Made by a program: the position numbers and the translations under genes. Positions 8,080 to 13,718 of a DNA stretch of 64,000 nt are shown here, one piece after another. Origin of the DNA: Kaistia sp. 32K. Lineage in GTDB: Bacteria; Pseudomonadota; Alphaproteobacteria; Rhizobiales; Kaistiaceae. How positions within the stretch are numbered: position 1 is the first letter of the stretch; the number at the start of each line of letters is the position of its first letter. The stretch covers positions 3,906,001-3,970,000 of the forward strand of contig NZ_AP024269.1 of NCBI RefSeq assembly GCF_016629525.1, given 5' to 3'. The notes beneath the pieces are model-generated. The model did not search any database. It was given only the letters and a program-made list of their open reading frames with translations, and had not been told where the DNA came from.

Positions 8080-8295
8080 GGGCGTCCCGAAACACGGCCC
8101 TCATTCAGAGGTCATCGAAGGCCGTCATGCCGTCTGCGGCGCATGACCAGGACGCGTCGCCCCGGCGGAGGCCGGGGCCCATAGACACCGACCGAGCAAA
8201 CCGTGACCGGCCCTCTGGTCATAAGCCCGTGGGTATGGATCCCGGCCTTCGCCGGGATGACGGCGGAGGCTCACGGCATAGGTGAAGGAAAGCCC
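8080..8295. repeat. Intergenic paired-hairpin repeat (GGATCCAT/GTCATCCC family)
   Basis: The gap between two convergent genes holds one composite element. A left hairpin CCCCGGCGGAGGCCGGGG (about 8160-8177) and a right hairpin CCCGGCCTTCGCCGGG (about 8241-8256) face each other as inverted copies, each flanked by GGAT(C)CAT-like inner and GTCATC-like outer sequence. Related copies occur near 19.6, 22.1, 33.9, 36.3 and 41.2 kb. Confidence 0.7.
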
Positions 8296-8676
8296 TCACG
8301 CCCGGCTTGGCGTGCGGCCGAAGATGGCGACGGCGAACAGCACCATGCCGAGCAGCGTGATGATCGAGCCGGCGATGACGATCGGTTCGCCCGACGGCGC
8401 GCCGCGCAGCGTCAGCACGAGGCCGGGGATCATGATCCAGAGGCCGATCGTCGACACCCAGAACTGGATGGTCGCGAGCCGGCTCGCCGCCTTGGCCGGA
8501 TTGGCGTTGTAATAGAAGCCCATCAGGGCGAGCGACACCCAGCCGATCAGGTTGAGATGGGCATGCGCCGGCGCGAGCGAGAAGTCCTGCTGCGCACCCA
8601 TGATGATGCCGCCGATCATGCCGACGATGACATAGATCACGGCCGTTCCGATGAACCACTGACTGATTTTCGGCAT
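8296..8676 (-). CDS. Small heme-copper-oxidase-like membrane protein
   Basis: Inner-membrane protein of 126 residues with four hydrophobic helices. The segment APAHAHLNLIGW (residues 36-46) resembles the histidine-bearing helix of cytochrome oxidase subunit I and NnrS-type proteins, in which paired histidines ligate heme or copper. It is far shorter than a real oxidase subunit I (about 450 residues or more), so it cannot be a complete oxidase; a heme-binding or sensory membrane protein is more likely. The start ATG has GGAGGGAC upstream. An Irr-like half box lies about 80 bp upstream. Function is not established. Confidence 0.7.
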   Translation of the reverse strand: MPKISQWFIGTAVIYVIVGMIGGIIMGAQQDFSLAPAHAHLNLIGWVSLALMGFYYNANPAKAASRLATIQFWVSTIGLWIMIPGLVLTLRGAPSGEPIVIAGSIITLLGMVLFAVAIFGRTPSRA

Positions 8677-8922: not shown

Positions 8923-8964
8923 AAAAGAAAAACGCCCGTCGGGGAGGAGGTCGACGGGCGTTTA
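8923..8964 (-). ncRNA. CcsR-like hairpin 3, also the rho-independent terminator of the DUF1127 transcript
   Basis: On the minus strand a 12-bp perfect stem (AAACGCCCGTCG with its complement) closes a loop with CCTCCTCCC, followed by TTTTTCTTTT. It is the last of three tandem hairpins with the same anti-Shine-Dalgarno loop. The run of T residues makes it a clear intrinsic terminator for the DUF1127 transcript on the minus strand. Confidence 0.75.
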
Positions 8965-8970
8965 GAGGGT

Positions 8971-9004
8971 GGCGCGTTGTCGGGGAGGAGGTCGACGCGG
9001 CGCC
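8971..9004 (-). ncRNA. CcsR-like hairpin 2
   Basis: The middle hairpin of the array. An inner 4-bp stem GTCG/CGAC and an outer GC-rich stem, separated by a small internal loop, present the loop CCTCCTCCCC on the minus strand. The loop is identical to that of hairpin 3. Confidence 0.65.
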
Positions 9005-9006
9005 AA

Positions 9007-9044
9007 TCGCAGAGAACGGAGGGAGGAGGGGATGTCCTCTGCGA
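9007..9044 (-). ncRNA. CcsR-like hairpin 1
   Basis: The hairpin nearest the DUF1127 gene, 23 bases after its stop codon. An 8-bp stem TCGCAGAG/CTCTGCGA closes a 22-base loop that contains CCTCCTCCC on the minus strand. In Rhodobacter sphaeroides, CcsR small RNAs with this loop are processed from the transcript of a DUF1127 gene (ccaF1); the same arrangement here supports the assignment. Confidence 0.65.
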
Positions 9045-9067
9045 ATTCCTTGAAGTCTCTAGAAGTC

Positions 9068-9220
9068 TTAGTAACCGACGGCCTGCTTGGCGACCCGCTC
9101 GATCTCGCCGCGGTGGATGCCGAGGTCAGCAAGCTCGCGGTTGTTCAGGCGGGAGAGCTCGTTGTAGGTCTCGCGGAACTTGCGCCAGGTCTTGTAGGAA
9201 GCGAGGATATTGAGAGCCAT
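9068..9220 (-). CDS. DUF1127 small protein (CcaF1-like)
   Basis: A 50-residue basic protein beginning MALNILASYKTWRKFRETY and ending RGEIERVAKQAVGY, with the DUF1127 core LNNRELADLGIHRGEIER. The start ATG has AAAGGAC at correct spacing. In R. sphaeroides the homologue CcaF1 binds RNA and affects turnover of the CcsR small RNAs made from the same transcript; here three CcsR-like hairpins follow within 150 bp. RNA binding is inferred from family and context. The gene is probably stress-induced, but I could not identify a clear heat-shock sigma promoter. Confidence 0.9.
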   Translation of the reverse strand: MALNILASYKTWRKFRETYNELSRLNNRELADLGIHRGEIERVAKQAVGY

Positions 9221-9576
9221 TTTCGGATGTCCTTTGAATTCGGTCTGATCTCTGTCGAACTAGCGCCGGATTTCTCTGTCGCCGTTCTTGTTGACGTTGA
9301 TATAGGCGGTTGCCAGCGAATTGAGCACTGCGAAAAAGCTCATGCCAGCGATGCGCCTAACGCAGAGCAGCATTAATTCTGGCGTCATATTGCAGCGCAG
9401 CATTAAGGGATACGGCCGGATTGCGGCGGATCGGCGGGGATCAGGTCGCGATTGCGGCCGCCACCGGGCCGAGACATGACGCTGATGCATGTCGAGGCGG
9501 CGAAGCGCCCTGCCCAATCCTTCGGCAGCATCCGGCGCGGCGCCCTGTCCCGCGCCGCCCTCCCCAGCCAATGCAT
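9221..9576. other. Intergenic region upstream of DUF1127
   Basis: This stretch holds the likely promoter of the DUF1127 transcript (minus strand). A direct repeat GCAGCATTAA occurs at about 9367-9376 and again at 9397-9406, roughly three helical turns apart, and could be a regulator binding site. A TATATC hexamer on the minus strand near 9300 could be a -10 element, but no convincing -35 partner was found. Confidence 0.3.
9260..9343 (-). CDS. Possible 27-residue small ORF upstream of DUF1127
   Basis: A short reading frame begins MSFFAVLNSLATAYINV and ends DREIRR, 39 bases before the DUF1127 start and in the same direction. Codon third positions are mostly G or C, as in neighbouring genes. 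The ribosome binding site is weak (AGGCG some 16 bases upstream). The hydrophobic start recalls N-termini of DUF1127-type proteins, but the core is absent. It may be a leader peptide or a decayed copy, or not translated at all. Confidence 0.25.
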   Translation of the reverse strand: MSFFAVLNSLATAYINVNKNGDREIRR

Positions 9577-9603
9577 AAAAAAGACCGGGCCAGAGGCCCG
9601 GTC
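9577..9603 (-). terminator. Rho-independent terminator downstream of homospermidine synthase
   Basis: On the minus strand a 9-bp perfect stem GACCGGGCC/GGCCCGGTC with a 3-base loop is followed by TTTTTT. It ends the homospermidine synthase transcript about 90 bp after the stop codon, with a rhizobial repeat lying between. Confidence 0.85.
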
Positions 9604-9644
9604 TCGATGATCTTCCGACAGGAACCGGCTGAACGATTTGTTAG

Positions 9645-11843: not shown

Positions 11844-12977
11844 TCAGATCACGAAGGCTTCGAGCGGCTTGAAGCCGTTGAAGGCGACGGCCGAATAGGT
11901 CGTCGTGTAGGCGCCCGTGCCTTCGATCAGCACTTCGTCGCCGATCGAGAGCGACACCGGCAAGTGATACGGCGCCTTCTCGTAGAGGACGTCGGCGGAA
12001 TCGCAGGTCGGGCCGGCGAGCACGCAGGGCGTCTTCTCGTCGTGGTCATGCGCCGTACGGATCGGGTAGCGGATCGATTCGTCCATCGTCTCGGCGAGGC
12101 CGCCGAACTTGCCGATGTCGAGATAGACCCAGCGCAGGTCGTCGGCCGAGTCGCTCTTCTTCGAGATCAGCACGACTTCCGTCTTGATGATGCCCGCATT
12201 GCCGACCATGCCGCGGCCCGGCTCGATGATCGTCTCCGGGATGCGGTTGCCGAAATGGCGCTTCAGCGCGGCGTCGATCGACGAGGCGTAGTTCTCCACG
12301 CCCGGGATCTCCTTGAGATACCGGGTCGGGAAGCCGCCGCCGAGATTGACCATCGAGAGCTGGATGCCCCGCTCGGCCAGCGTCGAGAAGATGCCGGCCG
12401 CCGATGCGAGCGCGCTGTCCCAGGCCTCGGTGTTCGCCTGCTGCGAGCCGACATGGAACGACACGCCATAGGCGCGCAGGCCCGAGCGATGCGCATGCTC
12501 GAGCACGCCGACAGCCATTTCGGGCTCGCAGCCGAACTTGCGCGACAGCGGCCATTCGGCGCCGGCGCCGTCGCAGAGGATGCGGCAGAACACGCGGGTG
12601 CCGGGAGCGGCGCGGGCGACCTTCTCGACCTCGGCCTCGCAATCGACCGCATAGAGGTCGATGCCACGGGCGAAGGCGGCGGCGACGTCGCGCTCCTTCT
12701 TGATCGTGTTGCCGAAGGAGATGCGGTCGGGAGTCGCGCCGGCGGCCAGCGCCATGTCGATCTCGGCGACCGAGGCGCAGTCGAAGTTCGAGCCCAGCGA
12801 GGCGAGCAGCGACAGCACTTCCGGCGCCGGGTTGGCCTTCACCGCGTAAAAGACGCGGGTGTCGGGCAGCGCATGCGCGAAGGCGAGATAGTTTTCCCGC
12901 ACGACATCAAGGTCGACCACGAGGCACGGGCCGTCGGGACGTCGGGTGTTGAGGAAATCGATGATGCGTGCGGTCAT
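11844..12977 (-). CDS. odc: Ornithine decarboxylase (PLP fold type III)
   Basis: Converts ornithine to putrescine, the precursor of homospermidine; 377 residues, as in alphaproteobacterial ornithine/lysine decarboxylases. The PLP lysine is K48 in YAVKANP, the glycine loop is NLGGGFP, and the catalytic cysteine is C325 in GPTCDSADVLYE, with EGTGAYT near the C-terminus. This is the alanine-racemase-fold type, not the large fold type I enzyme of enterobacteria. The start ATG is preceded by GGAG at about ten bases. Some homologues also take lysine. A leader of nearly 480 nt with several hairpins precedes it and probably regulates it. Confidence 0.93.
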   Translation of the reverse strand: MTARIIDFLNTRRPDGPCLVVDLDVVRENYLAFAHALPDTRVFYAVKANPAPEVLSLLASLGSNFDCASVAEIDMALAAGATPDRISFGNTIKKERDVAAAFARGIDLYAVDCEAEVEKVARAAPGTRVFCRILCDGAGAEWPLSRKFGCEPEMAVGVLEHAHRSGLRAYGVSFHVGSQQANTEAWDSALASAAGIFSTLAERGIQLSMVNLGGGFPTRYLKEIPGVENYASSIDAALKRHFGNRIPETIIEPGRGMVGNAGIIKTEVVLISKKSDSADDLRWVYLDIGKFGGLAETMDESIRYPIRTAHDHDEKTPCVLAGPTCDSADVLYEKAPYHLPVSLSIGDEVLIEGTGAYTTTYSAVAFNGFKPLEAFVI

Positions 12978-12989
12978 TTGGAGGGTCTC

Positions 12990-13460
12990 CCCGTGGCCTG
13001 CCAAGGCCAAAAAACGTTGCGAAAGCGATGACGAAACCGGAGCGCAGCCCTCGCGCCAATCGCTATGGACGCGATCGGAACGGTGACGACGAGCCGTTTT
13101 TGCCGGGGTGAGCCGGCAGTTTTCGCGGGTAGCAGTCGCTTGGACGAACGGGAGCGTTCATCGTGAGCGCTGCCTTCGCTTGGAACGGGAGACCCGATCC
13201 GCACGCCCGGCAAGGATGTAGTGCCTCTTCAGTGACCACGGCCTTTGGAGAGCCGGCAGAGACCAAAAAAGCCCGCTACGTCGTTGCTTCAAGTCGCGTC
13301 CTCCGCGGAGACGGAGTTCACCGGTTTCGCTTTCCGGCTGCCGACCTTTCTCGGGATCGCTCCCGAACTCCTGGGACCCTCTTGCGGAGGATCTTGGGCG
13401 TCGCTTCGGCCTCTTGTCCGAAGCCCCACCGGTCGGCACGCAACCACAGGCACGTGCGAT
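12990..13460 (-). ncRNA. Structured leader upstream of ornithine decarboxylase (speF RNA motif candidate)
   Basis: The non-coding stretch before odc is long and rich in hairpins on the minus strand: GCTTCGG/CCGAAGC (13403-13424), TCGGGA-loop-TCCCGA with a GCGA-type tetraloop (13351-13366), a CTCCGCGGAG palindrome, and a U-rich tract TTTTTT (about 13265-13270). The speF RNA motif is known upstream of ornithine decarboxylase genes in alphaproteobacteria, and position and structure fit. I could not run a covariance model, so this is a strong guess from context. A promoter with TTAAGC and AATTAT 18 bases apart lies near 13460-13489. Confidence 0.5.
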
Positions 13461-13718
13461 AATTGGGCGAGGAGGTACGTATGCTTAACCCGCTTCACAT
13501 TCAAGCGGATTTTACGCCTCGGGCACAAATTTCATGCATGGGCCGCCTGCATATACGGCATGGCTCCGAAACCCGGCAATTCTGCCACATTTTTGCAGGT
13601 TTGGCTGCCCCTTCCGCCGCCGCCGAGACGGTCCGCGACGCCGCTTTCCGCCTCTGATTCGCGCTTCCTGCCACCTGTCGTTTCGCCTATGCAGGAACGG
13701 CAAACAGGAGAGACACGC

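Follow-up and report, generated by a model that had tools for sequence, protein, structure and literature searches.

Locus and surroundings

The window, meaning the whole 64-kb stretch of DNA that was analyzed, carries on its minus strand a short DUF1127 gene with a predicted promoter before it and three hairpins behind it. In the direction of reading, the following features were assigned.

9352-9364, minus: predicted LysR-type box of the form T-N11-A, TGCGTTAGGCGCA; with the −10 hexamer starting at −12, its first base falls at about −71
9340-9352, minus: VtlR-box-like site ATCGCTGGCATGA, with five of the seven fixed positions of A-N3-CA-N3-ATGC and its first A shared with the T-N11-A box
9323-9328, minus: −35 region GTGCTC, a weak hexamer 17 nt before the −10
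9300-9305, minus: −10 hexamer CTATAT, predicted transcript start near 9293
9068-9220, minus: DUF1127 gene, 50 amino acids (PF06568, 52.6 bits; cut-off 23.3)
8927-9049, minus: αr14 sRNA (RF02344), 123 nt (70.6 bits, E 4.9e-12), probably the 3′ part of a DUF1127 mRNA
9007-9044, minus: hairpin 1 (fold), 16-nt loop at 9018-9033 with CCUCCUCCCUCC
8970-9005, minus: hairpin 2 (fold), 10-nt loop ACCUCCUCCC at 8983-8992
8930-8963, minus: hairpin 3 (fold), 10-nt loop ACCUCCUCCC at 8942-8951, then TTCTTTT (8929-8923)

The DUF1127 stop codon and the αr14 region are separated by 18 nt, and an NCBIfam search gave no name for the window's DUF1127 protein. The first-pass annotation had read a 50-residue DUF1127 gene on the minus strand, followed by three hairpins with a common loop motif and a T-run behind the last; the reading frame and Pfam score, the fold with its motif positions, and TTCTTTT behind hairpin 3 bear this out.

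Eight loci of the genus, the window counted, are syntenic for this DUF1127 gene. All eight have the same upstream neighbor, which carries Pfam saccharopine dehydrogenase domains and which we take to be homospermidine-synthase-like. The downstream gene was matched at seven of the eight loci (window counted; exception G003c) and encodes in the window (8296-8676, minus) a 126-residue COX1-like small membrane protein at 23.2 bits, below the Pfam cut-off of 34.8. Judged from reading frames, the region at ~8110-8270 looks like a dispersed intergenic repeat.

Behind the presumed homospermidine-synthase-like gene lies a strong terminator-like hairpin with a T-run (9577-9630, minus); the low-scoring SorX match there (22.4 bits; cut-off 46.6) probably reflects just this hairpin. 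Farther upstream (13105-13468, minus), a speF leader (RF00518, 52.9 bits) adjoins ar45 (RF02347, 47.9 bits), both above cut-off and upstream of an ornithine/diaminopimelate-type decarboxylase gene (11844-13010). The DUF1127-αr14 unit stands downstream of this apparent polyamine cluster.

A small upstream open reading frame (27 codons, ATG at 9343), prompted by an attenuation paper on S. meliloti (PMC12218461), was set aside; its ATG precedes the predicted start of transcription, and the same frame ends after 13 codons in paralog L001. It is retained as a slight possibility because in paralog L003 (G000:C1:1976701-1979823, minus) the same frame, opened by an ATG that precedes the predicted promoter, continues into the DUF1127 gene (128 open codons).

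Sequence and fold of the hairpins

The 9-mer CCTCCTCCC occurs on the minus strand at 9021-9029, 8983-8991 and 8942-8950, three copies within 88 nt, all unpaired in loops of the minimum-free-energy fold; each of the three loops carries CCUCCUCCC. Only one further copy lies in the 64 kb (four in all, 1.0 expected per window), a total reached by 1 of 100 shuffles. The three-hairpin fold has a free energy of −52.3 kcal/mol (z −7.06), and none of 200 shuffles was equally stable. Folded singly, hairpins 1, 2 and 3 gave z values of −5.2, −3.4 and −6.7, with 0, 1 and 0 of 200 shuffles equally stable. By inspection, hairpin 3 with TTCTTTT looks like a Rho-independent terminator; a simple terminator scan of the window found none, its rules admitting loops of at most 8 nt, so that a hairpin with a 10-nt loop was out of range.

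Two details of the earlier reading had to be amended. The first loop, counted there as 22 bases, measures 16 nt in the fold, where G-U, A-U and C-G pairs lengthen the stem. The stems, described as unrelated, include 19 nt common to hairpins 2 and 3 (CGTCGACCTCCTCCCCGAC); otherwise the description stands.

Assignment to an RNA family

RF02344 (αr14) matched the region end to end at 70.6 bits, above the gathering cut-off of 58.8, and the RNA is thus a member of this family. RF02791 (CcsR1) reached 14.4 bits against a gathering cut-off of 65.3, and CcsR membership was rejected. The proposal of a new CcsR variant is therefore replaced by assignment to αr14/NfeR1. As a CcsR-like operon in another order, the locus had been placed correctly in kind, the arrangement being that of the published CIN1 locus, but its RNA family is αr14 and its promoter LsrB/VtlR-like.

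The αr14 RNAs are described as three hairpins, each with an 'ultraconserved' CCUCCUCCC, and highly variable stems (PMC10746234). The fold and pair counts show the same for the window: three hairpins, the anti-Shine-Dalgarno (aSD) motif unpaired in every loop, and variable stems. Six copies are reported for S. meliloti (PMC7143759), where SmelA075 has three hairpins and SmelA099 four (PMC3927594), and three-hairpin CCUCCUCCC RNAs of Rhizobiales were already published in 2011 (PMC3927594) and 2023 (PMC10746234). The CIN1 locus is described, in a passage citing the original, as a short DUF1127 gene associated with CcsR-like RNAs (PMC10253847), and the window unit, with its PF06568 gene and RNA family match, agrees with that definition. 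It also agrees with the definition of a cuckoo RNA, summarized as 2-4 hairpins with a conserved loop and no conservation of helix sequence (PMC4504443): the stems vary with compensation, and hairpin 3 keeps five invariant pairs in the family.

A promoter directly before the RNA, as in NfeR1, was not found; the promoter is similar, but the DUF1127 gene lies between. A second, hidden promoter directly before the window RNA is possible. A consensus promoter scan gave no site between the DUF1127 gene and the hairpins, a result that counts little, as the scan also misses the proposed promoter.

Copies in the genome, the family and the class

The own genome (5.35 Mb, one contig) contains three αr14 matches, all above cut-off (window 70.6, paralogs 80.2 and 67.4 bits) and each behind a different one of its five DUF1127 genes. 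At the remaining two DUF1127 loci (L007, L008), CCTCCTCCC was not found within ~1.5 kb. Among 31 genomes (own plus 30 relatives), 25 gave an αr14 match, which exceeded the cut-off in 18; among the latter are all 14 genomes of the genus, each of which has at least one DUF1127-linked copy.

The family set comprised 50 αr14 matches of at least 53.6 bits from 19 genomes; four weaker ones (31.9-36.3 bits: G001e, G005c, G007c, G009d) were excluded from the RNA alignment. In 48 of the 50, the distance from a DUF1127 stop codon to the RNA behind it is −1 to 34 nt. The remaining two are G018a, the second RNA of a tandem, and G013b, which is without a DUF1127 gene. In the tandem (G018, L051/L024) two αr14 RNAs stand behind a single DUF1127 gene. 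A class-wide RF02344 survey, an even draw of 289 genomes under stricter filters whose counts are a floor, gave a match in 15 and a match over cut-off in one, the own genome.

The DUF1127-αr14 locus is an ordinary, well-conserved member of a kind known for rhizobia and relatives. New here are the three units in one genome with the 48/50 linkage, the fixed promoter geometry, the relative without the DUF1127 gene and the drift of loop 1.

Conservation of loops and stems

Mean column entropies were calculated from the 50-row alignment after dropping columns with >20% gaps. Loops 1, 2 and 3 gave 0.72, 0.31 and 0.27 bits, the stems 0.58, the linkers 1.28 and the inner bulge of hairpin 2 1.71 bits. 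The suggested selection on the loop agrees with loops 2 and 3, both below the stems and linkers, but not with loop 1. The exact 9-mer CCTCCTCCC is kept in loops 1/2/3 in 35, 45 and 34 of 50 rows, and CTCCTCCC in 40, 48 and 45.

Changes on both sides were found in 23 of 33 pairs, and 91.6% of cells are paired in the same alignment. Four of five covariation measures were reached by none of 500 shuffles, the fifth by 3. Structures slid along the alignment pair 38-50% of cells (at most 49.7%) against 91.6% for the actual one, a comparison that favors the latter in that the structure was taken from the window row. One pair, that of columns 50-87, cannot form in 46 of 49 rows.

Loop 1 drifts, and the loops are not fixed as first supposed. 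In seven of the eight syntenic orthologs it is enlarged to 13-17 nt and contains at least two CCUCC cores, which overlap in some cases; just three of these seven (G000b, G003c, G010c) have the exact 9-mer. The enlarged loop is probably the derived state, because the eighth syntenic locus (G009a) has an ordinary loop of 10 nt.

Promoter and candidate regulator

Alignment of 43 upstream regions of the genus revealed a single conserved block. For the family, 50 promoters were compared, consisting of the 48 adjacent loci, G013b and the truncated weak match G007c; G018a and three weak matches without DUF1127 were dropped. In 47 of the 50, a −10 matching NTANNT is preceded by TGCRN6GCA at a distance of exactly 59 nt. 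The box at this spacing is absent from G014a, G015a and G017a; as all three lie outside the genus, the family-wide claim is weaker there.

In the NfeR1 promoter (PnfeR1), the LsrB site is placed at −72 to −60 (PMC10746234), close to where the T-N11-A box (about −71) lies here. The reported VtlR box, GCAT-N3-TG-N3-T (PMC7486931), was read in reverse for comparison. Directly after the T-N11-A box, all 47 boxed promoters match it in at least 5 of 7 letters, 17 of them in 7/7 and the window promoter itself in 5/7; shuffles reach at least 5 in ~1.2%, and if the one letter common with the T-N11-A box is taken as given, the expectation is ~4% by simple arithmetic. A 29-nt promoter pattern matched the 5.35-Mb genome three times, each before a DUF1127-αr14 unit (control 0); because it was written from the three sites found, it tells us only that there are no others. 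The conserved block looks like an LsrB/VtlR-type LysR promoter to which such a regulator would bind, and the weak −35 hexamer would be expected for an activator-dependent promoter.

In the own genome, trxB (TIGR01292, above cut-off) is followed by a LysR gene (L193:2773-3663). Its product matched PDB 9hh1 at 425 bits over all 296 residues, the next PDB match reaching 105 bits; 9HH1 is the LsrB structure of A. tumefaciens (PMC11975290). The order trxB-vtlR is reported to be well conserved (PMC7486931), and the trxB-linked gene is, by protein match, the LsrB/VtlR ortholog. AbcR was looked for next to the regulator, but the 6.5 kb surrounding trxB-lysR gave no Rfam match at E values up to 0.1. 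VtlR is reported to activate atu1667, an ortholog of two Brucella small proteins (PMC7486931) that are treated elsewhere as DUF1127 proteins (PMC12595884), and NfeR1 is activated by LsrB (PMC10746234).

A relative without the DUF1127 gene, and wider spread

In G013b (L034 1501-1622), the promoter stands directly before an αr14 RNA with three exact loops and no DUF1127 gene, which is the NfeR1 layout within one genus. G013b and its sister locus G006b (L047) have the upstream gene end, the promoter and the αr14 region in common; the upstream gene end, presumably of a gamma-glutamyltransferase-like gene, also occurs in G008b and G001c. The DUF1127 gene is present in G006b, G008b and G001c, and G013b lacks ~300 nt that include it. 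Loss in G013b would be the simpler reading than gain, because three loci have the gene and one does not. That the RNA persists without the gene argues that it is conserved in its own right.

When named genomes were scanned for three consecutive copies of CCTCCTCCC, at least 120 records came up, ten of them non-alphaproteobacterial by title. The others comprised at least 105 triple arrays with at least 450 nt upstream and six more with less. Among the matches listed (n = 105), a DUF1127 gene lay within 60 nt in 27 and at 60-420 nt in 17, and none was found by profile in 61. The linked triples among those listed belong to Mesorhizobium, Phyllobacterium, Martelella, Roseibium, one Brucella and Rhodobacterales, the stand-alone ones mostly to Rhizobium, Sinorhizobium, Mesorhizobium and Devosia. 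A relaxed form of the promoter rule fitted, among the matches listed, 14/27 linked, 22/71 stand-alone (a count that includes the ten non-alphaproteobacterial records) and 3/17 farther triples, and 9 of 2300 shuffles; none of the six linked Mesorhizobium loci listed fitted. Since the rule fits only part of these triples, the promoter design is not universal.

Proposed mechanism and alternatives

We consider it probable that the unit yields an LsrB/VtlR-driven DUF1127 mRNA whose 3′ end is an anti-Shine-Dalgarno sRNA, cut free and silencing GGAGG mRNAs. A LysR activator of the LsrB/VtlR kind would turn on the promoter at ~9300-9365 (minus), and RNA polymerase would transcribe the DUF1127 gene and the αr14 region as one transcript, stopping at hairpin 3. 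The three-hairpin RNA of ~120 nt would then be released from the DUF1127 mRNA by a nuclease such as RNase E. Through CCUCCUCCC, a copy of the 16S anti-Shine-Dalgarno core, its loops would pair with GGAGG-type ribosome-binding sites of other mRNAs and block their translation, as for NfeR1 on ntrB. The DUF1127 protein would be a co-expressed partner that may help process or deliver the RNA like CcaF1, or act separately.

Cutting of the window RNA from the DUF1127 mRNA and silencing of GGAGG-bearing mRNAs are proposed by analogy. NfeR1 silences ntrB through its aSD loops, independently of Hfq (PMC10746234), and CcsR1-4 are cut by RNase E from a DUF1127 co-transcript (PMC7866481, PMC10253847). Processing need not be required, because NfeR1 has its own start site. 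CcaF1 (71 residues) is reported to bind RNA, and DUF1127 proteins of Agrobacterium bind and act on PhoR (PMC12501420); because of the latter, the DUF1127 protein may be unconnected with the RNA.

A start codon could be assigned by rule to 47 of 49 DUF1127 genes. These are preceded by AAGGA (34), AGGA (1), GAGG (1) or other sequences (11) and in no case by GGAGG, and the predicted pairing of their ribosome-binding sites with the loop is weak (mean −5.1, strongest −9.0 kcal/mol, n = 47). For these two reasons, DUF1127 mRNAs would largely escape their own RNA. Before ntrC lies a gene that we take, by position only, to be ntrB, and GAGGAG in its start region pairs with the loop at −10.5 kcal/mol; this was not counted as evidence, because many strong ribosome-binding sites would pair.

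It is improbable that the unit instead encodes a CcsR-type stress RNA, with RpoH sigma factors driving the operon upon heat and oxidative stress and the DUF1127 protein maturing the RNAs, as in Rhodobacter. Gene order and loop 9-mer are identical, and CcsR is described as processed from a DUF1127 co-transcript, but the CcsR1 model (RF02791) stays at 14.4 bits under its cut-off of 65.3, the window protein has 50 residues against 71 reported for CcaF1, and the conserved promoter block resembles a LysR-type site in a comparison made with LysR-type boxes only.

Just as unlikely is a role of the hairpins as a mere 3′ untranslated region that stabilizes or ends the DUF1127 mRNA, or feeds back on its own ribosome-binding site, with no trans-acting sRNA. 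The terminator-like hairpin 3, the gap of just 18 nt and the promoter scan, empty between gene and hairpins although of little weight as it missed the proposed promoter too, would fit such a role. Against it, G013b keeps the promoter and all three exact loops without the gene, 61 of the 105 arrays listed have no DUF1127 gene found within 420 nt, and loops 2 and 3 are more conserved than the stems, which a stabilizer does not need. Feedback on the own site is opposed by the poor fit to the loop given above (mean −5.1, strongest −9.0 kcal/mol; 0/47 GGAGG). Chance, or a DNA palindrome without RNA role, is refuted by conservation and hardly deserves consideration: stable hairpins do arise in GC-rich genomes and CCTCCTCCC is expected about once per window, but not three copies in 88 nt with a fold at z −7.06, compensatory changes and αr14 in 14/14 genus genomes examined, each with at least one DUF1127-linked copy.

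Significance of the sRNA reading

Taking the LsrB/VtlR-driven aSD RNA as the preferred reading, we tentatively propose, at somewhat less than even confidence, that NfeR1 on the one hand and the VtlR/LsrB-activated DUF1127 genes on the other go back to a single ancestral operon, made up of an LsrB/VtlR promoter with a DUF1127 gene and an αr14 RNA, of which they would be two forms. Stand-alone NfeR1 would have arisen by gene loss, as apparently in G013b, and in one ortholog group loop 1 would have been rebuilt, gaining length and repeated CCUCC cores and perhaps changing its targets. If this is true, an aSD RNA may be lost unnoticed whenever a 'DUF1127 gene' or 'regulator' is deleted elsewhere.

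The proposal joins two literatures, that on LsrB/VtlR-regulated DUF1127 genes and that on the LsrB-activated sRNA NfeR1; in the own family, both form one apparent transcription unit with one promoter design. No paper naming both 'NfeR1' and 'DUF1127' was found, a weak result given that most subscription literature, including the cuckoo paper, lay outside the search; within it, three papers name both 'DUF1127' and 'LsrB'. Sister loci with and without the DUF1127 gene make the mutual need of protein and RNA directly testable, a question raised by reports of RNA binding for one DUF1127 protein (CcaF1) and of partnership with PhoR for others (PMC12501420).

Comparison with known systems

With the αr14 founder NfeR1 of Sinorhizobium meliloti, the window RNA has in common 123 positions, three hairpins with CCUCCUCCC in all loops, variable stems, several copies per genome and a LysR-type box at about −71. 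It differs in its 16-nt loop 1 and in the DUF1127 gene between promoter and RNA, whereas NfeR1 has its own start site.

The CIN1 locus and its cuckoo RNAs (Reinkensmeier and Giegerich 2015) likewise combine a short DUF1127 gene with 2-4 hairpins that have CCUCCUCCC loops and free stems; by the short descriptions in citing papers, no difference from the window unit was found. The ccaF1-CcsR1-4 locus of Rhodobacter sphaeroides (RF02791) has the same order of DUF1127 gene, aSD-loop RNAs and terminator. It is described with four CcsR RNAs and an RpoHI/RpoHII promoter (PMC10253847) and with a 71-residue protein (PMC12501420), in contrast to the 50-residue protein of the window and its failure with the CcsR1 model.

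The VtlR/LsrB-activated DUF1127 genes (the Brucella small proteins, Agrobacterium atu1667) resemble the unit in the LysR-type box before a small DUF1127-type gene and in the trxB-vtlR order. They differ in that aSD hairpins behind the genes go unmentioned in the available portions of their descriptions. A record of the genus Brucella (L145) contains a DUF1127-linked triple with a boxed promoter.
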